Virus record (IMG/VR): IMGVR_UViG_3300029286_003693
Location: 18,731-82,730 of that record
Direction: 5' to 3' (one strand)
Source: a virus
DNA: 64,000 nucleotides
Shown here: positions 17,846 to 61,061 of the stretch, piece after piece
Layout: every line of letters starts with the position of its first letter
Numbering within the stretch: position 1 is the stretch's first letter
Position numbers and translations under genes: made by a program
The notes under the pieces: generated by a model
Told to the model about the DNA's origin: nothing
Database searches by the model: none
Seen by the model: the letters and a program-made list of their open reading frames with translations, nothing else

Positions 17846-19084
17846 CTATCCTATGATGTCTGCGATATCGCAGCCGCTTTCGACCAGTACGTTGAACGCC
17901 CATCGCGTCAGCTCCACATCACCAAGGTCGAGCCCTTCCTGGATGATGATCCCCTGGATGTACGAGTCGATATCCCTGAAGGTCAGGGACTCGCTGGCGA
18001 GCCCTATGAAAGTCCCCACCGGGACCGCCGTAGCGCTGGCGTTGAATGTCTCAAGAGCCGTATTGTTGAGTGACAGGAATGTTACCGCACCGTCCACCAG
18101 CTCCACCGTGTCGTCTGCGAGACAAAGGTAATAGCGCTCGGATTCTGAAATATCGCCTGCATTGAAAGAGTCCTCGGAGGAGCAATACCGGGAGACCCCG
18201 CTCGCCTGTGCCTCTTGGAGTATCAAGAACTCATGGATAAGGTGCCCCAGGAACTCCGAAACGGCATCGTTGAAATCGAAAGTGTCTGTAGCCGTAAGCA
18301 GGAAAAATCGCTCATGCCCCGCTGAATCAAAGACGAACATCTTTTCGGCAATGACATGCAGGACTATGATCCAAGGCGCCGGCGTGTCTTCAAGGAAGAG
18401 ATAGTCATCGGCAATCTTCCCGATGATTTCTTCGATGGTATCGGTATTGACCAGGGAGTCGGCAATCAGGTGGTCCCATCCTTGTAGAATACCGTCCCAC
18501 ACAAAGATCTCCTCGCGGCAGGTAGAAGTGAAAAGGTATTCCTGGGCAACATCATGTCGCATGTTCACAAGGTCGGAAACTGAAAGATAAAGTCGCAGAT
18601 AAACCGGCAGGTATGGCTGCGGTTCCGCCATCTCGATGTTGAAGGACTCAAAGAGCTGCTCCCAGTAATACGGGACTGCGTTCGCGTAAGTGGAGTGAAT
18701 CTGAAGCTCGCTGGAGACCTCTTCCTGGAACGAGTCGCTGCCGCTCATGACAACATCCAAATGCATGTGAGCGACACTGATCGGCGCGACAGGCTTCGTG
18801 TAAACGATATTCAGAACCGATTGTTTTACCCGAGTTTGAGATCCGCCGAGAAGGTCAAAGAAGGCAATGTTATCAGCAGCAAACGCTTGGTGATAAGGCG
18901 TGAAGGCTTCGGCCATACCGAGAGTCTCCTCGATCTGGTCGTTCCAGACGACATACGCCTCGTGGCCCAGGTCGAAAGACTCCTCAACCAGGTCATCGAA
19001 AATCAAACCAGCGACATTCACGTTGCCCTGCTGATATTCGGTGAACCAGAGGTATTCTTCAATTTCCAAGTATGCGTTTGCCAT
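17846..19084 (-). CDS. Acidic degenerate-repeat phage appendage protein
   Basis: 412 residues. The protein is built from degenerate units of roughly 25-35 residues with a core of the type 'aromatic-x-E-x-[FL]-x-[LF]-x-[DE]' (for example DDLVEESFDLGHEAY and NDQIEETLGMAEAF). It is strongly acidic throughout. The same style of repeat forms the C-terminal part of the 708-residue protein at 20274-22400, so the two are probably related by repeat exchange. No enzymatic motif. The start ATG abuts the stop of the next upstream gene. Confidence 0.75.
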   Translation of the reverse strand: MANAYLEIEEYLWFTEYQQGNVNVAGLIFDDLVEESFDLGHEAYVVWNDQIEETLGMAEAFTPYHQAFAADNIAFFDLLGGSQTRVKQSVLNIVYTKPVAPISVAHMHLDVVMSGSDSFQEEVSSELQIHSTYANAVPYYWEQLFESFNIEMAEPQPYLPVYLRLYLSVSDLVNMRHDVAQEYLFTSTCREEIFVWDGILQGWDHLIADSLVNTDTIEEIIGKIADDYLFLEDTPAPWIIVLHVIAEKMFVFDSAGHERFFLLTATDTFDFNDAVSEFLGHLIHEFLILQEAQASGVSRYCSSEDSFNAGDISESERYYLCLADDTVELVDGAVTFLSLNNTALETFNASATAVPVGTFIGLASESLTFRDIDSYIQGIIIQEGLDLGDVELTRWAFNVLVESGCDIADIIG

Positions 19085-37244: not shown

Positions 37245-38303
37245 TTATGAGCGGGCTGCGTAGATCGCCCGTTCCGTATCGCTCATCTTGGCGACTGCGT
37301 TCTCGTAGGCTTCCCCTGTGAGCTTATCAATCGCGTCATACTTGTCGTCTCCCTGATTCCCTTCCGATACCGGGACCTTGGCAAGCGTCTTGACACCCGC
37401 GGCCCTCTCGGCCTCCGCCTTCTTTGCGGCTTCGATAGCCTTGCGCTTCTCCTCGGCGGCCTCAATAGCCGTGCGCTTCTCTTCGATGGACACGACATTG
37501 CCATCGTCCGCCTTGGGCGGTCCTTCCGGGTGGAAAACCGCGTCGCATTCTTTCTTTGCGGCTGCGAAAATCTGGGCGTCGGTCATCTTCTTCGACTCGT
37601 CGGTGGCCAGGAGCCGGTTGACGGCGTCCACAAAAGCCACATTCTTGATCCGCTCTGCGGAATACTCTGGGTTGCTGCTAAAAAAATCGGCTTGGGCGTC
37701 CTTCCATCCCTTTTCAGCTGCAGCCTTCTGGACCTGGGCGTTGATCTTGTCGAACATCTTCATCTCGGTGAGCGATTCGACGTACTCGGCGCGTTCCTTG
37801 TTGTAAGCGGCCAGGGTGATGTCCCCATCCTCGAACTTCGTGTCGAGCGCCGTCATCTTGGCTTCGATTTCCTCCCTGGTTCCGTGCTTTTTCTCGGCCT
37901 CCAGGATGAAAACAGGTTCGTTTTTGGGTACAATGACGGTCGCTGCCGCAGCTGACTTTTCCGCCTTCTGCGCTGCCTCCAGGTCTGCCGCCTCTTTGGC
38001 TGCCTGGACTGCCGCTGCCGCCTCTGCGTCTGCCGCCGCCTTGGCTTTGGCCTCTTCTTCGAGCTTCTCTGCTTCCGCTTCCGCTTCCTCCGCCGCCTTC
38101 TCCTCTTCAGTCTTCTCCTCCACCGCCTTCTTCTCGACCGTCCGCTTGGCTTCCCCTGCCCCCTCTTCCTTCGCCTTGGCGGCTGCGGCGGCCTCTTCCT
38201 CGGCTTTGATCTCCTCCGTGCTCTTGTTTTCCGTTTCCCCATCAAGGGCCTCTCGCTCTTCGGGGCTCAGCATCGCCAGCTCGTCTTCCGTGATCTTTCC
38301 CAT
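37245..38303 (-). CDS. Scaffolding protein
   Basis: 352 residues. Residues 20-125 are nearly all Ala, Glu and Lys and form a long charged helix; the rest is also helical (FDKINAQVQKAAAEKGWKDA). Acidic helical proteins between portal and major capsid are scaffolds in P22-like phages and guide procapsid assembly. The C-terminus (YENAVAKMSDTERAIYAARS) is moderately basic, as expected for a coat-binding end. Gene follows element A, so its level relative to portal may be tuned. Confidence 0.75.
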   Translation of the reverse strand: MGKITEDELAMLSPEEREALDGETENKSTEEIKAEEEAAAAAKAKEEGAGEAKRTVEKKAVEEKTEEEKAAEEAEAEAEKLEEEAKAKAAADAEAAAAVQAAKEAADLEAAQKAEKSAAAATVIVPKNEPVFILEAEKKHGTREEIEAKMTALDTKFEDGDITLAAYNKERAEYVESLTEMKMFDKINAQVQKAAAEKGWKDAQADFFSSNPEYSAERIKNVAFVDAVNRLLATDESKKMTDAQIFAAAKKECDAVFHPEGPPKADDGNVVSIEEKRTAIEAAEEKRKAIEAAKKAEAERAAGVKTLAKVPVSEGNQGDDKYDAIDKLTGEAYENAVAKMSDTERAIYAARS

Positions 38304-40899: not shown

Positions 40900-42189
40900 T
40901 CAACCCTCTGCCACCGTTATCAAAAGAGGTTGCACGCTGTTGATCCGTTTGTCGGCTATCTCAACATATTCAGGATTCAGTTCGATCCCGATGAACCCAA
41001 ATCCCTCCGCTGCCGCTGCTTTCCCTGTTGAACCGCTACCCATGAAGGGATCAAGAATCACGCCGCCGGGAGGCGTAACAAGGCGGCAGAGGTAGCGCAT
41101 CAGGGCGGTTGGTTTGACTGTGGGGTGGAAATTACCCTTCGTGTCTGTGTTCTCAACCTTTCGGAGTGTGGTACCGTGGTGGAACTGGGGGCCAGGATTA
41201 TTCAGCCCTTCATTACGATCTTCCCGGCTCGCCTTTGCGCAGTAGAAGAACCGGGCGGTTGAACCGGAGTCGCCGGGGGTGTCGCGCTTTGTAATGTCTG
41301 GGTCCATGTATCCGTAGGTATTCCGGTTAGGTCCTTCAGAATTAAGCCTTCTTTGTCCTGCAGACATCTTCCCGCTCGTCGTCACCGGAAACAGCCCCAC
41401 CACTTGATCGCTGCCGTCATATATAAGGTTGGCAGGCCAGCGTCCGTTTGCACTCACGACCTCTGGCGTGTCGCTCCCTGTCTGATTCATCCCCCATCCA
41501 TTTTTCTCGCTTTTCTTCGAGCGGTTCATTGTCCTCAATTGTGATGCGTCGGCCTTCGGGTCAATTCCCACCCTGCACCCATCGATATTCAATCCCCCCG
41601 TCCCATACTTCAGGACGTTGGCGGCCACGGTACCGATTAAGGGCTTCCGGCAAACCAAGACCGGCTCCCATGCTGGCTTGAGGGCAGTGCCCCAGCCTTC
41701 CCATTGACGGGCGGTATCAGTTGCGGGGGCGGTGATGTCAAAAACCTTTCCACTTCCATCCATGTACCCAATTCCAGTATCCCCTTTACCGTGATTGTCG
41801 AGCTTTATCCTGTGCGGCCCACTGCCGTTTTCGTTGACGCCCACCACTTGCCGTTCTGCCCCCGCCGCCTTGTCGATCGCCTTACTCACATCTAGCGACT
41901 TAGGGAACCCTGAACCATACACCCACATCACGGTATCCCGAATCTCCCACCCCGCATCCTCTATCGCAACAGCCAGCCGGTGAAAGGTTCGTGTCCCACC
42001 AAAGGCCAGCATATACGCACCCGGCTTCGCTACCCTCAATGCCGCTTCCCAAAACGGAACACCCGGCACACCGTGATCCCAATCCTTACCCATGAAGGAA
42101 AGGCCATAAGGAGGATCACAGACGATGGAGTCAACCGATTCGGTTTCAAGCGTTGGCATAATGTTCAGGCAATCGCCCTCATAAATCAT
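40900..42189 (-). CDS. DNA methyltransferase, DPPY type (beta class)
   Basis: 429 residues. Motif IV DPPYGLSFMG lies near residue 25 and motif I DPFMGSGSTGKAA near 385, an order typical of beta-class DNA amino-methyltransferases. The central 200 residues are a probable target-recognition region. The N-terminal (MIYEGDCLNIMPTLE) and C-terminal (NPEYVEIADKRINSVQPLL) ends closely match the gene at 42566-43759. It likely methylates phage DNA at a specific site to evade restriction; target unknown. Its start overlaps the stop of the preceding gene. Confidence 0.85.
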   Translation of the reverse strand: MIYEGDCLNIMPTLETESVDSIVCDPPYGLSFMGKDWDHGVPGVPFWEAALRVAKPGAYMLAFGGTRTFHRLAVAIEDAGWEIRDTVMWVYGSGFPKSLDVSKAIDKAAGAERQVVGVNENGSGPHRIKLDNHGKGDTGIGYMDGSGKVFDITAPATDTARQWEGWGTALKPAWEPVLVCRKPLIGTVAANVLKYGTGGLNIDGCRVGIDPKADASQLRTMNRSKKSEKNGWGMNQTGSDTPEVVSANGRWPANLIYDGSDQVVGLFPVTTSGKMSAGQRRLNSEGPNRNTYGYMDPDITKRDTPGDSGSTARFFYCAKASREDRNEGLNNPGPQFHHGTTLRKVENTDTKGNFHPTVKPTALMRYLCRLVTPPGGVILDPFMGSGSTGKAAAAEGFGFIGIELNPEYVEIADKRINSVQPLLITVAEG

Positions 42190-42569
42190 GACTGCATCAT
42201 CCCCACTTTAATATCGGGCCTGTTACTCGCCGGCTGCATGTCGATCACCGTGTTCGGGTCGTCGTACCCTGCCCTGAACGGCGGCATCTTCACGAGGTCG
42301 TCTATCCCATCCATGATCGTGTCTGTTATTGAAGACATCACCTGCACGAACTGACGCTTGCGCGTCGGCACCTCAATGTCAAACAACTTGCAGATTTGCA
42401 GCACCTTACCTGTTATGAACCCCCCGAACTCATCATTGTGCGTGTCGCTGTATTTCCAGAGGTCATCCAGTGTGATGATGAAGCGCTTCTTATTGTCCCG
42501 TTGCGCCCCGTTCAGGATCATGACTGGTTTACCCTTGAAGTATCCGTAGTCCCTCTCGATTACTCTCAT
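42186..42569 (-). CDS. Small protein between two DNA methyltransferases
   Basis: 127 residues, coupled by 4-bp overlaps (ATGA) to both methyltransferase genes. A strand-rich N-terminus (YGYFKGKPVMILNGAQRD, KKRFIITLDDLWKYSD) is followed by a helical segment. No motif recognised. The overlaps suggest a shared pathway or complex with the methyltransferases, but that is inference. Confidence 0.7.
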   Translation of the reverse strand: MRVIERDYGYFKGKPVMILNGAQRDNKKRFIITLDDLWKYSDTHNDEFGGFITGKVLQICKLFDIEVPTRKRQFVQVMSSITDTIMDGIDDLVKMPPFRAGYDDPNTVIDMQPASNRPDIKVGMMQS

Positions 42570-43759
42570 GCTGTCACCGCGAATAAGAGAGGCTGCACGT
42601 TGTTAATCCGCTTCTCTGCCATTTTTGCATACTCAGGATTTAACTCGATACCGACGAAATTACGGCCTAACTTCTCGGCCACCAGCCCCGTTGTTCCGGC
42701 GCCGGAGAAGGGATCAAGGACGACGCAGGGAGTAGGTTCGTGGTTGTGGGTGCAGGTCGGTCGCCAATCGTTTGTTGCTATCCGTTGTGGCGTATATGTT
42801 GCGCCACTGAGCGACCTAATCCCTGAAGGATTTCCACCCTTATCTGGGAAATAATCTCCAACATCTTTTCGCGCCCTATCGTTCGTAGCACCCGTTTTCT
42901 CCACCATCCTCACCCACGGACTCCCGCACTCGGGGCAGCACCCCTTCTCACTCGTTCCGGCCTTAATACATGGCGTCACAAGGGCTTCGGGGAATGTGGC
43001 AAAATGGGCTCCAGGGAATGGCTGGGTGGGAATAGTCCAGACAGAACGGCAGTTGCGGCCAGTAGGATGGCCAACGCTGCGTTTCCGGCCGATTTTAGTT
43101 GCAGAGCTGGCTTTACTAAATGGGTCTATTAAATCCTTATGTTTTCCACCGATACGGTCTCGGCTTTCCTCCATTTTCTTAATATCAGATGGTCCGCTTT
43201 GACAAGCTTCCTTGATTGCCTCCGCGTCATAGTAATACCGCTGACTCTTAACCAGTAGGAACAAATACTCATGACTCTTTGTCGGTCTGTCCGTTACACT
43301 CTCTGGCATGGGGTTCGGCTTGTGCCAGATAATGTCGGAACGTAACCACCATCCGTCAGCTTGAAGGGCGAAGGCCACGTGCCAGGGGATCCCAATCAGG
43401 TCTTTGGGCTTCAATGTCTTAATATTGGTAGGCATACCAAAACGTGATTTTTCTGTTGATGGCTTACCAAACTCAGTATGTTTTGCTTGATATTCTGGGT
43501 TGCTTCCTGCTTTCCCGCTGCCATTATACGAATCTCCCAAATTCAACCACACCGTCCCGTCATCCCGCAGCACCCTCCGCACTTCCCGGAACACGGCTAC
43601 GAGCTTGGCTACATAGGCGTCTGGCGAATCCTCCAGCCCGATCTGGCCATCCACCCCATAATCCCGAAGGCCGTAATATGGCGGCGATGTCACAACACAC
43701 TGAACAGAATCGGGTTCAAGCGCAGGCATAATGTCCAGGCAATCACCTTGATAAATCAT
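42566..43759 (-). CDS. DNA methyltransferase, TSPPY type (beta class)
   Basis: 397 residues from the ATG at 43759, which overlaps the terminase stop (ATGA). Motif IV is TSPPYYGLRDYG near residue 30; motif I is DPFSGAGTTGLVA near 355. TSPPY is common in N4-cytosine enzymes and some N6-adenine enzymes, so the modified base is uncertain. A four-Cys zinc site may lie in CCPECGSPWVR. It shares its first and last 20 residues with 40900-42189, while the middle differs. Probable role: protecting phage DNA. Confidence 0.85.
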   Translation of the reverse strand: MIYQGDCLDIMPALEPDSVQCVVTSPPYYGLRDYGVDGQIGLEDSPDAYVAKLVAVFREVRRVLRDDGTVWLNLGDSYNGSGKAGSNPEYQAKHTEFGKPSTEKSRFGMPTNIKTLKPKDLIGIPWHVAFALQADGWWLRSDIIWHKPNPMPESVTDRPTKSHEYLFLLVKSQRYYYDAEAIKEACQSGPSDIKKMEESRDRIGGKHKDLIDPFSKASSATKIGRKRSVGHPTGRNCRSVWTIPTQPFPGAHFATFPEALVTPCIKAGTSEKGCCPECGSPWVRMVEKTGATNDRARKDVGDYFPDKGGNPSGIRSLSGATYTPQRIATNDWRPTCTHNHEPTPCVVLDPFSGAGTTGLVAEKLGRNFVGIELNPEYAKMAEKRINNVQPLLFAVTA

Positions 43760-45093
43760 GCGGCCCACCCCGATAGCACCTGCCTGGTTCCTTGTTTCTG
43801 AATCCTCTTTGCCTTATACCCAACGGCAAATGTCCTGAAAGAATCCGCCCCGTGAGAGCAGTGGTCATGCAGCGGTGTCCGCTTGAGAATCTTTTTTTCT
43901 TCGTCGTATTCGGCCCTGTAGCCTTCCAAAGCCGATATGCCGGGTGAACACTTGCGTTCGTCAAACCAACACGAGCCAAGGGCGTTTCTGACGGCCTCGA
44001 TGCCGTTCATGACGGCGTCCGTGTTCCGGGGGCGCTCAACGACGATGATGGGCTTGATCCCCAGCTCCTCGGCTACCTCAACCCTGGACTTCGCGTGCTC
44101 CCCGGCGGACATTTCTCGTACCGCTGCGTCGTGGGGCATATAGTGATCACCGTAAACATAGGGCTTCTCTTTCAGGATCTTGGCGTAGTGAGCCAGGCCC
44201 ATGCCACTGTTCTCGTAATAATCGATGCACCTGGTCTCCTTGCCGATGAACTGCGCGAACCAGATCGTCATGCTGTCGTCCACACCCAGATCCCAGAACG
44301 TGTAGACCTCGGCGCCAGTCTCGTAGGGCACGCGGGTGATGCGGCCCTCCTTGTGAGCCAGCGCCATCTGCTTGCCGTAGTACGCGCCCATCACTGCGCC
44401 CTGGAACGAGCAGAAATACTCCTGCTGAAACATAGCCTCGCCCATCTCTTCGCCGAACGTTCCAACCAGCTCGGCACGGATCTCCTCCAATTTCACCTTG
44501 GTGAAGACAGGGGTGTCATCTGCGGTCAGGACTTGAGCGAACCAACCGGGTGTGATGCGGGCGAAATCCAACATTGTTTTCAGATGATTGTCGCCGCGGG
44601 ATGTGCTGATGAACGCGGCCCAGCCGCCATTTTCTTCGAGTATCGGGGAAAGGTAAGCCCATGACTGCGGGTTTGATAGCGCGTATTCGGAGAAGACGAT
44701 GCCGATCGGTGGGCTGCCGACCAAGGCATTGTAATTGTCGGAGCCCACAAGCTGCCAGGAAGAGCCGCCAACGAGGCCAATGTACATATCGGTGCTTCTC
44801 GTACTGGTCCTCATCTCCATCGGAAACGCCTCGTCGATCCTCTTCATGCCTGTGCGGGGGTTGACGGCTTCCCAAATCGCCTTACGGCACTGATTGAACT
44901 GTGGGAGCATGTGCCAGTAGTTTCCGACACGCTCCTGCGATGCCGTGGCGGTGAAGTGAAGGGCAATATCATCCTTCCCCCAGCGACGATGGGCGACCTC
45001 GACGGCACGCTTCCCACCATTCTCCAGGTAATCCCAGAGGGCGATCTGATCGTCGCGGGGTTCCCACCCGTTATGAGGTAGCTCGACTCCCAT
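43756..45093 (-). CDS. terL: Terminase large subunit
   Basis: 445 residues from ATG 45093 (MGVELPHNGWEPRDDQIALW) with AAGGA upstream; this start overlaps the small-subunit end. The ATPase Walker A variant is HRRWGKDD near residue 33 and the Walker B region GIVFSEYAL near 120. The RNase H-like nuclease follows with FWDLGVDDSM, IDYYENSG and a late HGADSFR aspartate. The enzyme packages DNA into the procapsid and cuts it at the end of a headful or site. Confidence 0.9.
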   Translation of the reverse strand: MGVELPHNGWEPRDDQIALWDYLENGGKRAVEVAHRRWGKDDIALHFTATASQERVGNYWHMLPQFNQCRKAIWEAVNPRTGMKRIDEAFPMEMRTSTRSTDMYIGLVGGSSWQLVGSDNYNALVGSPPIGIVFSEYALSNPQSWAYLSPILEENGGWAAFISTSRGDNHLKTMLDFARITPGWFAQVLTADDTPVFTKVKLEEIRAELVGTFGEEMGEAMFQQEYFCSFQGAVMGAYYGKQMALAHKEGRITRVPYETGAEVYTFWDLGVDDSMTIWFAQFIGKETRCIDYYENSGMGLAHYAKILKEKPYVYGDHYMPHDAAVREMSAGEHAKSRVEVAEELGIKPIIVVERPRNTDAVMNGIEAVRNALGSCWFDERKCSPGISALEGYRAEYDEEKKILKRTPLHDHCSHGADSFRTFAVGYKAKRIQKQGTRQVLSGWAA

Positions 45094-47161: not shown

Positions 47162-47545
47162 TTATTTATCCGCTACTGCCTCGTCATGTTGCTTCAGCCA
47201 TTCGTCGATCTCGACTTTATAGAAGACTGGCCTCCCGTCCACCCAATACCGGAGAGGAGCCCTGTAACGCTTGATCCACCGTTTCGCTGACTTCCAGGAC
47301 CCGGCGTTGAGATACTTTCGGCACGCTTCCGGCCCGATGATCCAACCCATGGCGCAGTCGGCCATGCACTTCCTGACCAGCTTCTCCATCTGCGTATGGA
47401 ATTCCTTGTTCCAGGCATCCGACCACTCCTCGGCAGGCATTTCCCCTCTCGTTTTCCCACATTTTTTATTGGCTTTGTCTTCCGCCGCGGGGATCACCCC
47501 TTCGCGCATCTCGATATAATCCTTGTTGATCTTGGCTTTCGGCAT
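47162..47545 (-). CDS. Phage DNA-binding protein with HTH_17-like domain
   Basis: 127 residues. The C-terminal 60 residues (ACRKYLNAGSWKSAKRWIKR, then WVDGRPVFYKVEIDEWLKQH) look like the winged helix of excisionase/MerR-type HTH_17 proteins. The N-terminus is charged. It is the last gene of the early right operon, just before the divergent cargo gene and the late operon, so it could be a late regulator. A pentamer array separates it from its upstream gene. Confidence 0.7.
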   Translation of the reverse strand: MPKAKINKDYIEMREGVIPAAEDKANKKCGKTRGEMPAEEWSDAWNKEFHTQMEKLVRKCMADCAMGWIIGPEACRKYLNAGSWKSAKRWIKRYRAPLRYWVDGRPVFYKVEIDEWLKQHDEAVADK

Positions 47546-47620
47546 CTGCTTCTCCTTCTGGGCTTACCGCTATTAAATTCACTCCGTTATTTTAAGATTC
47601 CGAAGAGTGCACTAATTATC

Positions 47621-47775
47621 CTTGCCTTGCCGAGCCACACCCGGCCTCGCCACACTGAGCCATGTCTAACAGTGCCTGTCCTTGCCAGAACTACCCCAAC
47701 CCAATCTCGCCTTGCCCAACCACATCCTGCCTTATCCTGCCGCACCTGGCCCCGCCATGCCAAAACTTGCCGACT
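47621..47775 (-). repeat. Pentamer array 1 (31 units, GCNNG on transcript)
   Basis: 155 bp divide exactly into 31 pentamers without any indel. On the plus strand 29 begin with C and 24 end with C (cttgc, cgagc, ccggc, ctcgc and so on); on the transcript the consensus is GCNNG. The array fills the gap between the IS-interrupted gene (stop 47774) and the HTH gene, and on the transcript ends in GCAAGG then an AT-rich stretch. Arrays 2 and 3 share all of this. Confidence 0.85.
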
Positions 47776-48038
47776 ACCGGAACGCCTCCAATGTCTTCAC
47801 ATACGGAAGCTGATCTTGAGTCTCTTGCACTCTTGCTTCGATCTTTTTGATGCTGCTACCCTTCGTCATCACAGCCATGACTCCCAGCACAGACGCATAA
47901 GTGTTTAGCCTGACCTTCTCCTCATTCGGCATGATCGACATATCGGATATACAGGCCATCCGATTGAGAGACCTCCTGGTCGTTCGTTTGATATGGGCAA
48001 TGCTGAATGCGCCCGTGTTGATAATCTCGGTATCATCC
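47774..48038 (-). pseudogene. C-terminal part of the IS-interrupted phage gene
   Basis: Read from the target-site duplication at 48034-48038, this segment gives DTEIINTGAFSIAHIKRTTR, RSLNR, and then the 61-residue frame starting at 47959 (MACISDMSIMPNEEKVRLNT and on to KTLEAFR). It is in frame with the N-terminal part at 50957-51188 once the insertion sequence and one copy of CATCC are removed. The restored protein has 163 residues. No function recognised. The 3' half might still be translated from an internal Met, but no good ribosome-binding site is obvious. Confidence 0.85.
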
Positions 48039-48156
48039 TGTAACCCCGCACATTATTTTGATTGAAGCGGGTATCTTTTTATCACGATGTTTTGTATGAG
48101 AGGCAGAGTCGTGCACATTGATTTGATCATAAAGAAAGAGGGCAACCGAAGGTTGA

Positions 48157-48660
48157 TTGGTTTGGCCGCCATCCCCGTTGGTTACCCTCTCAGAAAGCGG
48201 TATCTTGATACTACACCTTGCGGTCGATGTAAAGGTTTTATTCGAGAGGGGGAAGAGGTTCCCATGGTTGAAGCATTTGCGGTGCCCTCGATGTGGGAGC
48301 GCGAGACTATGGGGGCACGGATTTGCGGAGCGATATTTTGAGGGATTCGGCAAGTGTTTATGGGTGAAGCGGTTCCGCTGTCCGGATTGTCTTGCCATCC
48401 ATACCTGCCGGCCATTGGGATTTTTGAAAGGTTTTCGATATTCTGCCGGCGTGATCCGTTCAAGTCTGTTGAAAAAGATTACGGAGAACGCCTGGGTCAG
48501 AGGCGTTGTGCGGCAGAACCAGCAGTACTGGTTTCGTTGTCTTCGGTTTCGGATCTCCGGTCGCTGTAATGTGAACAAGCCCGCCATCGATTCCATCGCG
48601 TTATTTTTTTCCGAGAGAATCTTTCCCGTGACAGAACATTTTGCGCCGCTGCGCATATGA
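48157..48660 (+). CDS. IS-encoded zinc-ribbon accessory protein
   Basis: Up to 167 residues; no ATG suits, so the start (TTG at 48157 or further inside) is uncertain. A zinc-ribbon is visible: CPRCGSARLWGHG then FRCPDCLAIHTCRP, giving paired CxxC motifs. The rest is basic and helical. It precedes the transposase gene on the same strand inside the element. A DNA-binding helper role is inferred. Confidence 0.6.
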   Translation: MVWPPSPLVTLSESGILILHLAVDVKVLFERGKRFPWLKHLRCPRCGSARLWGHGFAERYFEGFGKCLWVKRFRCPDCLAIHTCRPLGFLKGFRYSAGVIRSSLLKKITENAWVRGVVRQNQQYWFRCLRFRISGRCNVNKPAIDSIALFFSERIFPVTEHFAPLRI

Positions 48661-48743
48661 TGGTTTCCCCACCTTCTTCTTGCGTCGATAAGTCCATGAC
48701 GCCTCTGGTATGGGTAGCGAAAATCTTTCAGGAGGTGTTTGCT

Positions 48744-50057
48744 ATGGACGAAGAAGGAAAAAGACGGATTGCGCAGTTTCGGTTCGGGGTGATTCACGAT
48801 CTGATCGGTGACAGGAAGCTGAGTCGAGGAGAGCAAAAGAGGCTTCTTCGGGAGAAGTCTTCCTGCACATGGGAGATCCCCGGTTCCGGACGGAGTTACA
48901 TCAGCGCCTCGACGATCCTGAGTTGGACCAGACGGTATGAAAAGGGAGGCCGCAGGATCGAGAGCCTCTACCCGGAAGCCCGGTGCGATCGAGGACGGCC
49001 CCGTATCCTCGACGATGAAACGATCCTTTCCCTGGTGGAGCTCAAAAAACAGATGAAGGAGGTCTCCCTGCCGGTCATCCTGCGAGAGGCAAAACTCCGG
49101 AAGATCTTTCATCCGGGGATCAAGGTTCATCCCGCCACCATTTACCGCCTGTTCAAAGAACGGGGTTTGATGAAGCGGGAAGAAGTTCGGATAGATCGCA
49201 GACGCTTCGAGGCGGAACTGCCCAACGACATCTGGCAGTCCGACGGCATGCACGGCCCCCGGATCACTCACGAAGGGAAAGAAAGAAAAACCTATCTGTT
49301 CGCTTTCATCGACGACATGAGCCGGCTGATCTGCCACGCAGAGTTTTTCTGCCATGAGCGGGTGGAACATTACACCGCCGCCTTGAGAGTCGCCCTTGCG
49401 AAACGGGGCTTGCCGAGGAAGCTCTATGTGGACAACGGCCCCGCCTTTCGATCTCATCTGCTGGCTCACGCCACTGCTTCTCTGGGCATTGCCCTGATTC
49501 ACTCCACCCCCTACCAGCCCCAGGGCCGGGGAAAAATCGAACGGTTCTTCCGCACCCTGCGCATGCAGTTTCTCAGTACATGCCCCGAGGGGCTTTCCCT
49601 GGAAAAACTCAATGACGGCCTCAACCGATGGCTCGACGAGCAGTATAACGTCACCATACATTCCAGCACGAAGCAGACACCCTTGAACCGCTATCTCAAA
49701 CATGCCCATCTGCTCCGGGAAGCCCCGAAAGATTTAAATGATTACTTCCGCATCCGTACCACCCGAAAGGTGGATCGGGACCGAACCGTTTCGCTTAACG
49801 GCATGCTCTATGAAGCCCCGATCCCTCTGATCGACAAGACGATCACTCTGCTGTATCATGATGGCGACCCCGCACGAATCGAGGCCTTCCATGAGAGCGT
49901 CTCCCACGGCATGCTCGTTCCCCTGGACATGAAGATCAACTGCCGAATCCGAAGAGAACACCACATCGTCAAACTTCTATCATCGGAGCAAGCCCCGGAA
50001 GAACAACCCAAATACACCGGCGGAAAACTCTTCGGGGAGGTGGACCATGGGCTATAA
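48744..50057 (+). CDS. DDE transposase of the insertion sequence
   Basis: 437 residues from ATG 48744 (MDEEGKRRIAQFRFGVIHDL) with AGGAGG upstream; an in-frame extension to 48657 lacks a site. An N-terminal HTH (SASTILSWTRRYEKGGRR) precedes the rve-type catalytic core: Asp in WQSDGMHGP, Asp in LYVDNGPAF, Glu in GKIERFFRTLRMQF. The C-terminal beta domain (RDRTVSLNGMLYEAP) is Mu-transposase-like. It should cut and join the element ends. Coupled by overlap to the ATPase gene. Confidence 0.9.
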   Translation: MDEEGKRRIAQFRFGVIHDLIGDRKLSRGEQKRLLREKSSCTWEIPGSGRSYISASTILSWTRRYEKGGRRIESLYPEARCDRGRPRILDDETILSLVELKKQMKEVSLPVILREAKLRKIFHPGIKVHPATIYRLFKERGLMKREEVRIDRRRFEAELPNDIWQSDGMHGPRITHEGKERKTYLFAFIDDMSRLICHAEFFCHERVEHYTAALRVALAKRGLPRKLYVDNGPAFRSHLLAHATASLGIALIHSTPYQPQGRGKIERFFRTLRMQFLSTCPEGLSLEKLNDGLNRWLDEQYNVTIHSSTKQTPLNRYLKHAHLLREAPKDLNDYFRIRTTRKVDRDRTVSLNGMLYEAPIPLIDKTITLLYHDGDPARIEAFHESVSHGMLVPLDMKINCRIRREHHIVKLLSSEQAPEEQPKYTGGKLFGEVDHGL

Positions 50058-50847
50058 AACCTTCTTCAGCTTCCAGAAAGAACCCTTCTCTCAAGATATC
50101 CGCGTGGAAGATCTCTACCCCCTGCCGGGTCTCCAGGCCGCCTCGGAACGCCTCCTTTATGCCCTTTCCCTCGGCGCCGCCTCCATCATCACCGGCGACG
50201 TGGGAAGCGGCAAATCCACAGCCCTCAGATACGCCACCGCCAAACTCCACCCTTCTCAGTACAAGGTCGTCTCGGTCATCGCCTCCACCGGCTCCATGGC
50301 CGACACCCTTAGGCAAATCTGCAATGGCTTCGATCTGGATGGGCAAACCAACTCACTTGCCAGGCTCACCAAAACCCTGCGCACAGCCATCCTGGAAATC
50401 TCCCAGAGAAAGCAGATCCCCGTATTGATCATCGATGAGGCCTCTCTGATGAGGCTGGAAATCTTCGCCCAGCTCCACACCTTAAGCCAGTTCGACATGG
50501 ATTCCAAACCCCTGCTCCCGATCGTCCTGGCAGGCCAAAACAACCTCGTCGACAAGCTCATGTTCCATGCCTCAAGACCTCTGGCTTCCCGAATCATCGG
50601 CAGAAGCCATCTTGAAGGCCTTAAATACAAAGATATGGCGGGATACATCCAGCACCACCTGAAGATCGCCGGCAGTAAAGACCAATTGTTCTGTGATGAA
50701 GCCATACTCGCCATCCACCAAGGCTCAGGCGGCCTCCTCAGAAGGGCCAACCTCCTGGCAAAAGGAGCCCTCATGGCCGCGGCGAATGAAAAATGCCAGC
50801 TCGTTTCACCAGAACATGTCAGAATGGCGTCCACCGAAATCATGTGA
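50047..50847 (+). CDS. AAA ATPase of the insertion sequence (ExeA/TniB-like)
   Basis: 266 residues. Walker A GDVGSGKST near residue 55, Walker B VLIIDEASLM near 130, and a C-terminal helical domain (GGLLRRANLLAKGALMAA). These features match the ExeA/TniB group of AAA ATPases, which select targets for DDE transposases of the Mu/Tn5053 kind. Overlaps the transposase gene by 11 bp. Complete. Confidence 0.9.
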   Translation: MGYKTFFSFQKEPFSQDIRVEDLYPLPGLQAASERLLYALSLGAASIITGDVGSGKSTALRYATAKLHPSQYKVVSVIASTGSMADTLRQICNGFDLDGQTNSLARLTKTLRTAILEISQRKQIPVLIIDEASLMRLEIFAQLHTLSQFDMDSKPLLPIVLAGQNNLVDKLMFHASRPLASRIIGRSHLEGLKYKDMAGYIQHHLKIAGSKDQLFCDEAILAIHQGSGGLLRRANLLAKGALMAAANEKCQLVSPEHVRMASTEIM

Positions 50848-50861
50848 AAAGAACACCAAAC

Positions 50862-50890
50862 ACCGGAAGGGATAACCCATCCCTTCCGGT
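50862..50890. terminator. Perfect hairpin downstream of the IS ATPase gene
   Basis: ACCGGAAGGGA-TAACCCA-TCCCTTCCGGT is an 11-bp perfect stem 15 bp after the ATPase stop. No U-tract follows in either direction, so it may act with Rho or protect the mRNA end. Confidence 0.45.
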
Positions 50891-50951
50891 CAATCTCTAT
50901 TGCAAAACATCAAACGATTGTAAGATTATCGAGTCAATTTATTGTGCGACG

Positions 50952-51188
50952 TTACACATCCAGGCGTTTCAGCCCCTGGTTGATTACCACGCCGAATATC
51001 TTCCCATCTTCACGTTCTGCCATGCTGCGGGCCGTGTTGAGAAAACCACGCCCTTCCTTCTGGACATCCCGCCCGATAATCCCATTAAGCTCTTCGTATG
51101 TGACAAAATCTCCGATGTCCATCTCCGCCAACCGCTGATACATCAACCTTGCGTCCGCGCTTGCCTCCCTGATCCATTTCTTTTCCAT
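50952..51188 (-). pseudogene. N-terminal part of the IS-interrupted phage gene
   Basis: ATG at 51188 with GGGGAGGGG upstream. Residues 1-77 (MEKKWIREASADARLMYQRL, AEMDIGDFVTYEELNGIIGR, then DVQKEGRGFLNTARSMAERE) belong to the phage gene; the last codons and stop at 50952 are supplied by the insertion sequence. The intact protein would be 163 residues (second part at 47774-48038). The N-terminus resembles small winged-helix-like phage proteins, but I recognise no family. Confidence 0.85.
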
Positions 51189-51213
51189 TCCCCTCCCCTT
51201 CCTGTTAGAAAAC

Positions 51214-51308
51214 CTTGCCTAGCCTCACTGTTCCACGCCCTGCCAAGCCACGCCTTGACGCGCCCAGTCTAATCTTTCCTTGCCGAGCCGCTCCCAGCCC
51301 AGCCCTGT
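51214..51308 (-). repeat. Pentamer array 2 (19 units, GCNNG on transcript)
   Basis: 95 bp divide exactly into 19 pentamers; 18 begin with C and 15 end with C on the plus strand. On the transcript it lies between the RAMP-like gene (stop 51312) and the IS-interrupted gene (start 51188), and ends GCAAGG then GTTTTCTAAC. Same consensus and orientation as arrays 1 and 3. Confidence 0.85.
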
Positions 51309-51311
51309 CTT

Positions 51312-51869
51312 TTATCCCCAGACGATTTCCTTCACCTGAAATCGCCCGTAGAACCCGTTGTTCTGAGGTCTGAAACGCCCAATACCGATAAACTTGCCCG
51401 CCTCTTCAAGGTGTAGCCTGAAAACATCCTCGGTGATCGTCTCATCAAGAATGAAAAATGATACCGGGCCGGACCATACCGGGATAACCGGGAAGCATCT
51501 CTTGACCCGCTTTCCGCCTCCACGCCTCCCATCCGACGGGACGAAATACCACTCACCCGCCACGTCTTCCTTTTTGACTGGCAAGACAAGAGCCTCAGTT
51601 ACCAGCACCCCTGCTTCTATGTGCTTCGTGAAGGTCGATTTCCCCTTTCCGGGAATCTGGATTGACAGATACTTCGCCACCGACGACAGGCAATTCTTGA
51701 AGCTCATAGGAGGAATGAAAACATTACCCTGCTCATTTGCGTGCATTCTATCCCGCCACGTTCTCGTTTCGTAATCATCGGGCCTTTCCTTTTGGAGCTT
51801 TGCCGTCTCGTAGAACTTTGATTGACTGTAAGGACTGATGCTTTCCAACTGACAAATTGCTGTTTTCAT
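51312..51869 (-). CDS. Possible RAMP/Cas7-like phage protein
   Basis: 185 residues; SD AGAGGGGA. The N-terminus has LESISPYSQSKFYETAKLQK; residues 50-75 read NVFIPPMSFKNCLSSVAKYL; the C-terminus has a glycine-rich loop GIGRFRPQNNGFYGRF. The 'IPP-S-K-L--VA' helix and 'G-GR--P---G-F' loop recall RAMP-superfamily proteins such as Cas7, which bind RNA along a filament. No Cas genes or CRISPR array are nearby. The similarity is by eye and unproven. Pentamer arrays lie immediately on both sides of the gene, suggesting a functional link. Confidence 0.55.
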   Translation of the reverse strand: MKTAICQLESISPYSQSKFYETAKLQKERPDDYETRTWRDRMHANEQGNVFIPPMSFKNCLSSVAKYLSIQIPGKGKSTFTKHIEAGVLVTEALVLPVKKEDVAGEWYFVPSDGRRGGGKRVKRCFPVIPVWSGPVSFFILDETITEDVFRLHLEEAGKFIGIGRFRPQNNGFYGRFQVKEIVWG

Positions 51870-51902
51870 AGATTTCCCCTCTCTCGTTTGTGATTAAATA
51901 AC

Positions 51903-51962
51903 CTTGCCTTGCCAAATCATACTATGCCCAGCCTTGCCTGGCCGCACCGAGCCTAACCCTGA
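51903..51962 (-). repeat. Pentamer array 3 (12 units, GCNNG on transcript)
   Basis: 60 bp form 12 pentamers in one register; 11 begin with C on the plus strand. It starts within the last codons of the KTSC gene and ends, on the transcript, in GGCAAGGCAAGG then GTTATTTAATC before the RAMP-like gene start. Confidence 0.85.
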
Positions 51963-52198
51963 CGAGTATTTTCGTCCCCTTTCTCCTCCTCGATCCTGAG
52001 CCCCCTCCGGCCAGCCCGAACAACTTGTGAGACGAACCGTCCGACCGACTCCGCCGCCAGGAGATCGGCGTACATTTCCGGCTGCACTCCAGCGTATTGA
52101 TAAATGCCGCCCGACTTGAATTCCACTTCCAGGACCTTCGTCTCCGCGTCGTACCCGACTGACTTCACATTTGTTGACTTAACCGGCTTTCTTTCCAT
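51953..52198 (-). CDS. KTSC-domain protein
   Basis: 81 residues from ATG 52198 (MERKPVKSTNVKSVGYDAET) with AAGGGGG upstream; a longer frame overlaps the zinc-protein gene. The segments SVGYDAETKVLEVEFKSGG and YQYAGVQPEMYADLLAAESV are the KTSC domain (found in phages and at the ends of some nucleic-acid enzymes; role unclear). The C-terminus is basic then acidic. Overlaps the previous gene by 20 bp. Confidence 0.85.
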   Translation of the reverse strand: MERKPVKSTNVKSVGYDAETKVLEVEFKSGGIYQYAGVQPEMYADLLAAESVGRFVSQVVRAGRRGLRIEEEKGDENTRQG

Positions 52199-56465: not shown

Positions 56466-57698
56466 ATGGCACAAACACCAGTCGTAAAGAACGGAAATCA
56501 GCCGGCACCCCCGCCGGTGGTAGCGCTGATGAGCATCGAGGCGGCGCTCAAGTTGGTTGAACAGAAGGCCCCCGAGGCTTTCCCCGTCCTCTCCGGAGTG
56601 GTCCGAAAGGACATCGTATCCCTCGGGACTGACGACGCCTTTGCGCTGCGCGACCAGGAAGGCGAGATCCGGGCGTTCAAGCAGCCCCTCACCCTTAGTG
56701 AAAAAGCCGGAACACTGATTCAGCCTGTACCCGGTGGACCTTTCGCCGTCTCGGCTCAAGGGTACGAGGTATGGCAGGAAGCGGCCGGAGCGTGCGTCAT
56801 CTTCCCTTCAGAGGTCCTGGTCGACGGGAAGTGGCAGGCCAACCCCGCCGTGATCAGGGATACGAAGAACGGGCGTATCCTGATGATCTACGCTCGGGCG
56901 GTAGCGTTCCGGTTCTCGTCCAAAGGTATCCCGATGGTCTCCGACTGGACAACCATTTACGATACCCCTTCTTACCGCATGATTGACCTTCTGGGGAAGG
57001 CAAAGCAGTTTCCCCAGGCATTCACCCTTCTCCCCTCGGACATGGCACCTGAAAAAGAAAAAGGCACATGGGCGAAGTATCCCTTTGATGAAGCCACAAA
57101 CCTTTGGATGAACACGACACACGACGAGGCCTTGCGATGGCTGGCGTCGATCATCAACCGCGAAAAGAAAAGCATCGACTTCGCCCAGACCTTCGCCAAG
57201 CGGAATTCCCTCAAGCACCTCAGCGGCATCCAGAAGGCCCCCGGCTCGCAGTGGACCATACCCGTAATCTCATGGCGGCCCATCTCCGGAAACATCATCA
57301 AATGGGATGCGACGCAGTATGCCAACCTTCAGGCTCGTGTCGGGAAGATGATCTCCGGGGACCGGAGCGAGTTCGCGGCAAAAGAAATAGAAATGCGGAC
57401 CGGGGCGGAGAGGGTTTCTGATGACCTGAATGCAGTCCAGGAGGAAGCCCACATCGATCCCGAGGACCAGGATAGAGTTATCGATGTCGCCCCAGAGAAG
57501 GTCACGGAGAAGAAGCAGCCCGATGGACATGTCTCCAAGGTCATGCAGAATCTTGCTGTCGCCAAGAAGGAATTCCATGACGAGTACCTTGCTGCATGTC
57601 AGTCCATGGGGATCGAAGCGGACGCGGATATGACGGACGAGCATGCCATCAAGATCATGAATACAATCAACGAGACGCTGGATAAGGCAGCAGCGTGA
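56466..57698 (+). CDS. Phage early protein in the recombination block, function unknown
   Basis: 410 residues; SD AAAGGAGG. The N-terminal 30 residues are Pro-rich. The core is alpha/beta (RILMIYARAVAFRFSSKGIP, TIYDTPSYRMIDLLGKAKQF, HDEALRWLASIINREKKSID). Residues 310-380 are acidic and disordered. Its position next to the Rad50-like pair suggests single-strand annealing or DNA binding, but no RecT, Erf or Redbeta motif is certain. Confidence 0.7.
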   Translation: MAQTPVVKNGNQPAPPPVVALMSIEAALKLVEQKAPEAFPVLSGVVRKDIVSLGTDDAFALRDQEGEIRAFKQPLTLSEKAGTLIQPVPGGPFAVSAQGYEVWQEAAGACVIFPSEVLVDGKWQANPAVIRDTKNGRILMIYARAVAFRFSSKGIPMVSDWTTIYDTPSYRMIDLLGKAKQFPQAFTLLPSDMAPEKEKGTWAKYPFDEATNLWMNTTHDEALRWLASIINREKKSIDFAQTFAKRNSLKHLSGIQKAPGSQWTIPVISWRPISGNIIKWDATQYANLQARVGKMISGDRSEFAAKEIEMRTGAERVSDDLNAVQEEAHIDPEDQDRVIDVAPEKVTEKKQPDGHVSKVMQNLAVAKKEFHDEYLAACQSMGIEADADMTDEHAIKIMNTINETLDKAAA

Positions 57699-57707
57699 GG
57701 AGGGGTT

Positions 57708-58760
57708 ATGATTAGCAAAGTCACAGCAACAGGGTTCAAGGGGTGCGACTTCGAGCAGGACCTTTCCGAGCGCACCCTATTCGTCGGCCCGAACGGCGCC
57801 GGCAAATCGGCCCGATCCCAGGCCCTCCAGCTTGCCGTCAACGGGGGCGTCATCGGGGCAGGAAAGACGAATGACGATATCCTCTCCACGTTCGGGGAGG
57901 GAGACAAGCTGGTCGTCGGCGTGGAGATCGACGGAAAATACCTCTTTCAACGGGGGTTTGTCCGGGGACCATCCGGGTCTGTCTCCCAGGGTTACAAGGC
58001 GGGCGGGGTCAAGGTCTCGAAAGATTACTTCATGAAAGCCCTCGGGGAGTCGGGCGCTCCTGTCGTCCTGAACGTGGCCGACTTCATGGCGCTATCGGAC
58101 CAGAAGAAAATCGAAGCATTGTTTCAGCTATACCCTCCCGCGGGGGACATCAGCGCCGTGCAGGGGAAGATCGATACGTCCAAAGAGAAAATCAACTCCC
58201 TGGCCACAAAAGTGAAGACATCGGAACAAGCAGCGGCCCGTATTGCATCTTCAAAATCGCAGATCCAGGTCCCTGCGGGAACGCTCGCAGAGGTTGATGC
58301 TCAGATTTCCGCCATGGAGACAGAACTGAAGGAGGCTCAAGACAGCCTGACGCAGATCCGCCTGGAGGAGCAGAGGGCGGCGGATGAACTGAAGGCCAAG
58401 GATGAGGCTGAGCGGAAGGAAAAGGAACAGATCGCGGCGGCGGAAAAGGCCCAGGCCGAAAAAGCGGCTGCTGAAACCACCGCCATCACCGACGAAGCCG
58501 TGCAGAAGTCCCTGGCCGAAAGGCCGGGGGAGATGTCGAAGAAGTGTGAAGCGCTGTTTGGGGAGAAAAAAGCAAACCCGCTGATGGATCAATACCCCTC
58601 AGTCGCGCAAGCCGTTCAGGGAGTAATCGCAAATAACGGATCTGCGGCTTCCATCCAGGCCATCATCACAGCCATGGACGAAGCCGGGTGTGAATCCTGC
58701 GCGGCGAAGATGATCGCTCGCCGGGAACTAAGGAAATACAAGGAGGCGCAAAATGGATAA
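57708..58760 (+). CDS. Rad50/SbcC-like ATPase, N-terminal lobe with coiled-coil and CxxC
   Basis: 350 residues. Walker A GPNGAGKS at residues 27-34 in an SMC/Rad50-type N-lobe (MISKVTATGFKGCDFEQDLS), then coiled-coil from about 150 to 265 (Glu/Ala/Lys-rich). Near the C-terminus CESC (328-331) sits where Rad50/SbcC carry the zinc hook. There is no signature motif or Walker B; these are in the next gene, which overlaps by 8 bp. Together they would make one complete ABC-type DNA-repair ATPase. Confidence 0.85.
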   Translation: MISKVTATGFKGCDFEQDLSERTLFVGPNGAGKSARSQALQLAVNGGVIGAGKTNDDILSTFGEGDKLVVGVEIDGKYLFQRGFVRGPSGSVSQGYKAGGVKVSKDYFMKALGESGAPVVLNVADFMALSDQKKIEALFQLYPPAGDISAVQGKIDTSKEKINSLATKVKTSEQAAARIASSKSQIQVPAGTLAEVDAQISAMETELKEAQDSLTQIRLEEQRAADELKAKDEAERKEKEQIAAAEKAQAEKAAAETTAITDEAVQKSLAERPGEMSKKCEALFGEKKANPLMDQYPSVAQAVQGVIANNGSAASIQAIITAMDEAGCESCAAKMIARRELRKYKEAQNG

Positions 58761-59304
58761 ACAGATCATTGAAGACCAAATCATCGGCATCAATTCCCGG
58801 ATCATAGCGCTCCGGAAGGACAGGGACGTCCATGTCCGCCTCCAAGGGCTGAACGTCGAAGCCGAGAAACTTCGCGGAGAGGCGTCTGCAGATGCCGTGC
58901 AGATAGAAAAGGAAAAGGTTGTAGTGACCGTCCTGTTGGCCCAACGGCAGCAGATCGTTCAAAGCACCATCGTAGGGCTGTCAAAACGCATGGTGGAGAT
59001 CCTTCCGGTCGGCAGGCCGGATATCCAGATCACCGAGGACGGCGGCGTCTATATCGGATGGGTCCGCCAGGACGGAAAGAAAGTGGCTTATGCAGGGCTC
59101 TCTGGTGGGGAGAAGGCGCTTTTTGACCCAGCCCTTGCCTATGCCCTCAAGGCGAATGTGCTCCTGCAGGAGAGTGCAGAACTGGATGAAGAACGTCTAT
59201 TGGAATCCCTGGGGAAGTTTAACGGGGCGAAGGTCCAGGTCGTCGTCTCAACCTGCCATGCCCCGGCGGTACTTCCTGCAGAATGGAAGGTGATTCAACT
59301 ATGA
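58753..59304 (+). CDS. Rad50/SbcC-like ATPase, C-terminal lobe
   Basis: 183 residues: coiled-coil (1-70), then the ABC signature LSGGEKALFDPAL (116-128), a Walker B/D-loop region VLLQESAELDEERL (136-149) and an H-loop-like VVVSTCHAP. The usual Walker B Asp appears as Gln139 while the catalytic Glu140 remains. No N-lobe; it must pair with 57708-58760. No Mre11/SbcD partner is seen in the block. Confidence 0.85.
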   Translation: MDKQIIEDQIIGINSRIIALRKDRDVHVRLQGLNVEAEKLRGEASADAVQIEKEKVVVTVLLAQRQQIVQSTIVGLSKRMVEILPVGRPDIQITEDGGVYIGWVRQDGKKVAYAGLSGGEKALFDPALAYALKANVLLQESAELDEERLLESLGKFNGAKVQVVVSTCHAPAVLPAEWKVIQL

Positions 59305-61061
59305 CTCAACTCGACCTTCAGCAGCAAGCAGCCGCCACCACCACATCCCTACGCGCCCTGGTTCTTGCCGGCGCCGGGAGCGGTAAGAGCCGTTGTCTCA
59401 TCGAGCGCATCGCCTGGTTGATCGAAACGCAGAAGGTAAGCCCCACGGAGATCATAGCATTTTCGTTTACCAGAAAAGCCAGCGGCGAGATCCGGGACCG
59501 CCTCAAGGAGAGGATCGGCGGGAAGGCAACCGGCGTGCAGATGGGGACAATGCACGGCCTCTCCCTGGAGTTCATCCACCGCTTCGGAGAAGTCATCGGT
59601 CTCCGGCCAGCCAATGTCACCGTCTATGGTGACTTTGAATCAGGCTACCTACTCGCGGATGTCGCTCAGGAAATGAGCGCGAAGAAGCCCTCCATCAAGG
59701 CCGCGAAAGAGGCCCTTGAACGATACTACCAGACGGGCGAGGAGCCGAAAGAGGACGACCCTGGACGCGATCTATTCATGGTGTTCCTGGCAAGGTGCCG
59801 AGAGAATAACGCCGTTTCGTATGGATCACTTCTCGTCGGGATGCGGCTTCTCGTCCCGACGCTGGCCAAGTATCTCCACGTCCGGCATATCCTGGTTGAC
59901 GAAATTCAGGACATCGATCCTTTACAGTGGAACGTCATCAATGAAATGGTCTCGGCGTTCGGGTGTTCGCTCTTCGTCGCGGGGGACATCGATCAGAGCA
60001 TCTATGAATTTCGCGGAGCCGTTCCCCGCTACCTCGTTGACCACTCGGGAGAGTTCGACATCTACCGGCTGGAGGCGAATTACCGGAGTATGCCGGAGAT
60101 CGTCAAGGCGGCGAACAGGCTGATAGAAAACAATCAGGATCGAATCACAAAGACCATGAGGGCGACACGGGAAGCTCCGGCACTCGCACCGGAAAGCGTT
60201 CAGGTTGAAAACAACATCCAAAGCGAAGGGATCGTGGCCAGGGCCAATTCGTGGCACTGCACAGAGGCCCCCGTCGCCATCCTCGCCCGGAAACACTCCC
60301 TCCTCGGAAAGATCGACCGCCTCATGGAGGAGGCCGCTATCCCTCACACCTACATCGGCAAGACCACGGCTCTGACCAATTCGGAGCCCTTTCGTCGTTT
60401 CCATGCGTTTCTCAAATTGGCCGTCAACCCGTTCGACAACATGAGCTTTCTCCTGATCCGCGATATCATCGGGCTCTCGCGGGAGGAGTACGGGCGGATC
60501 AGGCTCTCTGCGGCGCAGACCGGGAGGAGTCATTTCCGGGTTCTCATTGAAAGATACGCCTTGGTAAGTACAGAAGACTTGAACATAACACACCTTGAAA
60601 ACAACCCCCTTATTACAGGCGGATCTTTATCGCAGTGCGCCGAATGGCTGAACGAACACCACCCCGACCTCTCTCCGGAGTCCATGGCCTTCATCCAGAA
60701 GTATGTCGCCGGCCATCCTGACGACATCGCCTCCTACCTCGACTGGCTCGCCACGTTCGACGTTCAAGACGAGATCAACGGGGAAGGGGCTGAAGGCATC
60801 ACCCTGGCAACCATTCATGCCGCCAAAGGGCTGGAATGGCCCGTCGTCATCGTCGCTGGATGCAACGAGGGAATCATCCCGGCGCGACCGAACGACACGG
60901 ATGAGATAGAGGGGGAGCGGCGCTCGATGTACGTCGCCATGACCCGCGCCATGGATCAGCTTATACTGACCGTCCGGCCCATGGAGTCAACAGACGCGGC
61001 GGGGAGGGTGCATAACTCGCCGGAGAGCCGGTTTATCACGGAACTGCAAGGAGATAGGTAA
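59301..61061 (+). CDS. UvrD/Rep-type SF1 helicase
   Basis: 586 residues from ATG 59301, overlapping the upstream stop (ATGA). Motif I LAGAGSGKS near residue 23-31, motif II LVDEIQDIDPLQW near 200, motif III GDIDQSIYEFRGA, motif IV region, motif V ITLATIHAAKGLEW and motif VI ERRSMYVAMTRA. The DEIQD form of motif II is a conservative variant. A 3'-5' helicase for phage recombination or repair, coupled to the Rad50-like pair. Confidence 0.9.
   Translation: MTQLDLQQQAAATTTSLRALVLAGAGSGKSRCLIERIAWLIETQKVSPTEIIAFSFTRKASGEIRDRLKERIGGKATGVQMGTMHGLSLEFIHRFGEVIGLRPANVTVYGDFESGYLLADVAQEMSAKKPSIKAAKEALERYYQTGEEPKEDDPGRDLFMVFLARCRENNAVSYGSLLVGMRLLVPTLAKYLHVRHILVDEIQDIDPLQWNVINEMVSAFGCSLFVAGDIDQSIYEFRGAVPRYLVDHSGEFDIYRLEANYRSMPEIVKAANRLIENNQDRITKTMRATREAPALAPESVQVENNIQSEGIVARANSWHCTEAPVAILARKHSLLGKIDRLMEEAAIPHTYIGKTTALTNSEPFRRFHAFLKLAVNPFDNMSFLLIRDIIGLSREEYGRIRLSAAQTGRSHFRVLIERYALVSTEDLNITHLENNPLITGGSLSQCAEWLNEHHPDLSPESMAFIQKYVAGHPDDIASYLDWLATFDVQDEINGEGAEGITLATIHAAKGLEWPVVIVAGCNEGIIPARPNDTDEIEGERRSMYVAMTRAMDQLILTVRPMESTDAAGRVHNSPESRFITELQGDR

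Follow-up and report, generated by a model that had tools for sequence, protein, structure and literature searches.

Pentamer arrays beside a Cas7-like protein gene of an uncultured temperate phage as very probable guides of a VIPR locus

Register and unit of three intergenic arrays

Three stretches between the genes of an uncultured phage keep a strict 5-nt step, and the letters within the step vary from unit to unit; what holds the register, and what do the free positions carry? The window analysed here (64,000 nucleotides, positions 18,731 to 82,730 of IMG/VR virus record IMGVR_UViG_3300029286_003693) holds array 1 at 47617-47771 (31 pentamers), array 2 at 51210-51309 (19 pentamers, 20 in the phase GGYNN) and array 3 at 51899-51963, or to 51968 with its guide (12-13 pentamers), all intergenic and on the minus strand. 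On recounting, the figures of a sequence-only reading of this DNA proved exact: 31, 19 and 12 units in pentamer register with no indel within any array, one orientation for all three, and a plus-strand C at the start of 58 of the 62 units (binomial tail ~8e-26). The transcript unit proposed there, GCNNG, is better replaced by GGYNN, the natural and best-fitting phase on the transcript, with the last two positions free. Base 1 is G in 58 of the 62 units, base 2 is G in 49 and A in 9, and base 3 is C in 39 and T in 17, the GGY being relaxed to GRY in some units. The common 3' end, described earlier as GCAAGG and read here as GGCAAGG followed by an AT-rich stretch, was confirmed and is present in relatives too. 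Arrays flank both sides of the gene that we call vipr, with array 2 directly downstream of it, and the successive operon gaps to which the arrays had been assigned are successive for arrays 1 and 2 only if a 2918-bp insertion sequence (48039-50956) is left out of account.

A model-free test ranked the three arrays as the top period-5 stretches of the whole 64 kb (scores 4.71, 4.68 and 4.66), against a maximum of 3.34 in 15 shuffles, and the periodicity thus withstood the shuffled-sequence control that had been suggested for it. The stretch next in the ranking, 38086-38145, is a 15-nt tandem repeat unrelated to the arrays. A TRF run on the window called none of the three arrays, and scans of it for Rfam families and for promoters and terminators gave nothing above chance.

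Vipr, the arrays of its relatives and a split accessory gene

VIPR systems are presented in passages of a 2026 preprint as Vipr proteins, mostly phage-borne RAMP relatives of Cas7, acting with vrRNAs in which GGY alternates with NN and NN pairs with DNA, the target advancing three bases per unit (two read and one skipped, mostly the wobble base) (PMC13142463). The same passages give as criteria a Vipr RAMP of ~20 kDa, repeats in the intergenic regions flanking vipr and an invariable 3' tail, and they describe as examples, among types numbered I-VII, the type II systems of Escherichia phage SUSP1 and a Pseudomonas fulva prophage (PMC13142463). Against the 9-16 repeats reported there for a vrRNA (PMC13142463), the arrays of the window run to 31, 19-20 and 12-13 units and the two guides decoded below to 11 units plus tail units.

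The gene between arrays 3 and 2 (51312..51869, minus strand) encodes a 185-aa protein that matched the SUSP1 Vipr in the PDB (36pp_D) at E 7e-4 and ~23 bits as a single sequence, and at E 7.4e-15 as a profile of 63 relatives. Its AF2 model (pLDDT 95.3) had type VII/III CRISPR Cas7/Csm3-type subunits as its top Foldseek matches in the PDB (8yhe_E, E 3e-8). Pfam and PADLOC gave no match to the protein, PHROG only a family of unknown function, and the plasmid collection held no Vipr of the window's kind at tblastn sensitivity. By homology and modelled fold, then, the product is Vipr, the Cas7-like RAMP of VIPR systems. The multimeric RNA binder stepping 5 nt at a time that the sequence-only reading had postulated therefore fits in kind, since the array-linked protein is such a RAMP, and the solved SUSP1 entry has six chains; the TRAP-like identity offered as its model did not hold.

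Scans with the window's Vipr yielded 83 further loci, around which a GRY model detected 140 arrays. An array was detected in 55 of these loci, and the 28 others include contig ends and loci with other consensus units. No fewer than 138 of the 140 lay within 1.3 kb of vipr, a zone that makes up 241 of the 1112 kb in the loci examined, and 130 of those 138 shared the strand of vipr; shuffled loci gave 0 arrays. These counts answer in the affirmative an earlier question, whether such arrays are co-directional and linked to particular genes. A frequent order in the relatives is array, vipr, array, accessory gene, array, and the window follows it once the insertion sequence is discounted.

Alignment of 89 distinct arrays, chosen for a terminal CAA unit, showed AA in 69% and 48% of the two preceding units, and mostly GGTTT, GGTTC or a similar GG(T)n after the last unit. 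The entropy of NN was ~3.6-3.9 of 4 bits upstream in the guide units and 0, 1.8 and 2.8 bits in the last three units, and this hypervariable upstream part with an invariant end points to a programmable part followed by a fixed tail. A decaying, functionless microsatellite born of GGCAA slippage would account for GCAAG being the commonest unit of the window (10 of 62), but it is hardly credible for a register that is kept while NN reaches near-maximal entropy, for arrays that TRF does not call, and for a linkage that ties 138 of 140 arrays to a single gene family.

Some relatives depart from the common layout. One locus carries a 39-unit array 4.3 kb from vipr (L067:9121-9315), the segments and 3' end of which repeat those of the vipr-adjacent arrays, as if guides had been copied between arrays; another has seven arrays of up to 39 units around a single vipr, some segments recurring within the 39-unit array (L075:9829-11938). 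Two loci (L037:7311-8043 and L041:7827-8234) show array series with a common 5' leader (acaccaacac) and a common 3' segment, an architecture that differs from the window's, and at L022:1815-3728 unit base 1 is often A (AGY/GRY), the consensus being relaxed.

The accessory gene (vap) of the window is split by the 2918-bp insertion sequence, which carries an rve transposase (48657-50057, plus strand) and an AAA ATPase (50047-50847, plus strand), ends in imperfect terminal inverted repeats (TGTAAC..GCACA) and is flanked by a 5-bp target duplication, CATCC (48034-48038 and 50957-50961). The N-terminal part (50957..51188, minus) reads as a 78-aa ORF ending at 50952; the frame of the C-terminal part (47774..48038, minus) runs on across the insertion and closes with a stop codon that overlaps the opening unit of guide 1a. 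In a relative whose vipr is 87% identical to the window's, a 166-aa gene follows vipr (L021:5201-5701), and its start and its remainder are each 71% identical to the N-terminal and C-terminal parts, respectively. Homologues of the accessory gene occur in 63 of the 83 loci. The protein model (pLDDT 95.1) weakly resembles winged-helix DNA-binding proteins (best E 0.04), which agrees with the passages cited, where the vap of some VIPR types is predicted to bind DNA (PMC13142463). Accessory protein is probably not intact in the window copy, and because the gene is broken this copy of VIPR may be partly defunct. Downstream of array 1 lies a 127-aa gene (47162..47545, minus) with a weak HTH match (phrog_668).

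Candidate targets of two guides

Guides were read by the published rule of a 1-nt skip, two target bases being read and one skipped per unit. Matches were counted only by extension beyond the search pattern, open frame and gene identity; the decoded peptide was not counted as evidence, because it follows from the search pattern itself.

The guide of putative vrRNA 3 (51914-51968, minus) has 11 units, TC AG TA TC GC CA AA TG AT AT TT, followed by the tail GGCAAGGCAAGG (51902-51913, minus). Eight exact units of it with a 1-nt skip found 19 viral contigs, in two of which (L107 and L123) three further flanking units matched as well (22/22 bases), inside integrase genes of 411 and 418 codons with the Pfam domains Arm-DNA-bind_3, Phage_int_M and Phage_integrase; the last two AA units of array 3 were unmatched in both, as expected of a tail. 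By our own estimate, scaled from 6-22 contigs per 16-base core, ~0.003 exact 22-base matches are expected by chance in the viral collection. Among 398 genomes the 11-unit pattern with at most two mismatches gave 29 matches in 25 genomes, against ~0.4 chance single matches (again our own estimate), and the reversed pattern gave 0. Integrases made up 24 of the 25 fetched loci, in wobble frame and with the motif xMMQxWADYL[DE] or a one-residue variant; as the matched genes are homologous, the 29 matches weigh as about one event, or one motif. Skips other than 1 gave no match of 20/24, a weak control since the loci had partly been chosen with skip 1. The candidate target of vrRNA 3, judged from these alignments, is the C-terminal motif KMMQxWADYL[DE] of P4-type integrases, at the 3' end of the gene.

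The 5' part of array 1 would form vrRNA 1a (47707..47776, minus), with a guide at 47717-47776 that reads TC AA [GTTTT unit not read] AT GG CA GC AG AA AG GT TG and a tail-like GGCAAGGCGA at 47707-47716; the 3' part (47617..47706, minus), 18 units ending GGCAAGGCAAGGATA, is probably a second vrRNA. Of the 13 contigs found with a first pattern from the 5' part, four had the match in a terminase gene, and in all four one extra unit matched. The GTTTT unit lacks GGY, and if it is skipped over the two preceding units also match terminase genes. With a pattern spanning the omitted unit, 14 of 22 exact 8-unit contig matches were terminase genes in wobble frame, four of these 14 matching all 11 units of the guide, and two of the guide's targets were terminases by PHROG. 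The site reads LLACPIFE or FLACPIFE, with GGARGGGKT, GTRGPGKT or a similar segment a little further on, which makes large-terminase genes just before Walker A the candidate target. We take this match as support and not as proof, because leaving out GTTTT was a choice made with the matches already in view, and because six of the eight units in the second pattern had been in the first as well. Both decoded guides skip the wobble base of the codon.

Other searches gave no targets. Guide 1a had no match in 299 genomes, and searches with the cores of array 2 and with the 3' part of array 1 stayed at control level with no extension of matches. The latter part decodes antisense to [DE]TRST[DE][IM]YV, similar to a tyrosine-recombinase catalytic segment, and was set aside when no supporting gene was found. 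The guides had no self-targets within the window, where neither decoded target occurs; the phage itself has an integrase and a terminase of other kinds. In the 83 vipr loci, skips of 0-3 gave no excess over shuffled guides, the 20/20 matches at skip 3 proving to be a homologous array missed by the detector; all 140 arrays of the relatives, run against the other fetched loci, gave no excess at any skip.

Around the window's terminase genes we also noted two consecutive DNA methyltransferase-like genes adjoining them (40900-43768), the first PHROG-supported and the second judged from its sequence only, and elsewhere a cassette of an unknown phage protein, an SbcC-like ATPase and a DNA helicase (56466-61061).

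Could the VIPR locus be real and the two matches coincidental, falling on very common conserved motifs while the true targets are others? The two further guide regions that matched nothing (array 2 and the 3' part of array 1), the clumping of homologous matches and the unit that guide 1a has to omit all speak for it. We nevertheless consider it unlikely: two exact 22-base matches were found for guide 3 where ~0.003 were expected, the reversed control gave 0, and both decoded guides match hallmark genes of mobile elements, in coding frame and with wobble as the base passed over. Much less probable still is a leader-RNA regulator, a TRAP-like protein that binds the arrays and controls translation of the gene downstream of each. 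Each array does sit in the gap ahead of the next operon gene, as TRAP sites do, but NN is hypervariable with a fixed tail, the arrays go with vipr, and two guides decode into foreign genes. The arrays may still have an autoregulatory side effect. Of what the sequence-only reading proposed, neither the likeness to TRAP, a leader regulator, nor a processing or recombination element proved right; the varying positions appear to carry a message, as guide dinucleotides, and are not neutral filler.

Proposed action and relation to known systems

We put at roughly 95% the probability that the window contains a temperate phage's VIPR locus, the guides and Vipr of which would silence rival mobile elements; sequence could hardly place it in VIPR more firmly. 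Computed here were the repeat anatomy, the homology and fold of Vipr, the linkage, the wobble-phase target matches and the split accessory gene; transcription, RNP formation, DNA binding and repression we infer by analogy from the SUSP1 work in the passages cited (PMC13142463). The minus-strand arrays would be transcribed into vrRNAs in which one Vipr subunit holds the GGY of each unit and leaves its NN pair exposed for DNA pairing; per unit, two target bases would be read and one passed over. In this clade the tail behind a guide (11 units in the two decoded) consists of two or three invariant GGCAA units and then GGTTT or similar. Vipr filaments on the guides would bind to double-stranded DNA in rival mobile elements, silencing them, with vrRNA 3 acting on the 3' end of genes for P4-type integrases and vrRNA 1a on the beginning of those for large terminases.

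With the skip falling on wobble, a single guide would fit a conserved protein motif in many synonymous spellings. It is possible, though we hold it with slightly more doubt than conviction, that such wobble-blind guides are selected at the level of the protein motif, aimed at the best-conserved stretches of entire gene families, and that a GGY-less unit loops out and does not move the reading forward on the target; if selection of this kind is true, one guide would give broad protection against many elements (at the integrase C-terminus, or in terminases before Walker A). The VIPR class is already known, and the integrase and terminase targets may be new relative to the passages of the preprint cited; what an uncultured phage adds beside that single preprint is independent evidence in a distant Vipr, its arrays and its 1-nt-skip targets (PMC13142463). 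A distant VIPR clade seems to obey the same code, its guides sitting on strongly conserved motifs of mobile elements. If the targets hold, one short guide would cover a whole integrase or terminase family, which bears on mutual phage exclusion and on the possible breadth of a programmable repressor. The VIPR reading also accounts for a repeat pattern that, but for the preprint, would resemble nothing known.

TRAP is a multimer that binds constant (G/U)AG triplets with short spacers of 2-3 nt. The locus is like it in its putative repeat-stepping RNA-binding multimer, and unlike it in the unit GGYNN, in which the free positions 4 and 5 are the informative ones, and in the RAMP protein. With the Cas7/Csm3 of class 1 CRISPR and the Cas7 backbone of type VII the Vipr model has its RAMP fold in common, and the repeated subunits on a guide RNA would be alike by analogy with Cas7/Csm3; unlike CRISPR guides, a VIPR guide pairs in interrupted dinucleotides, and no CRISPR repeat-spacer array was present among the tandem repeats of the window.

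The closest likeness is to the VIPR systems of SUSP1 and P. fulva as those passages describe them: a homologous Vipr, intergenic GGY/NN vrRNA repeats adjoining vipr with a 3' tail, a small accessory gene predicted to bind DNA, carriage by phages, and targets that belong to rival mobile elements and have their skipped base at wobble (PMC13142463). Compared with SUSP1, the Vipr of the window is distantly related (~23 bits) and its GGY more relaxed; the tail consists of repeated GGCAA units, the arrays are interleaved with vipr and the accessory gene, reach 31 units and probably hold more than one guide, the accessory gene is split by an insertion sequence, and the decoded candidate targets are integrase and terminase genes.
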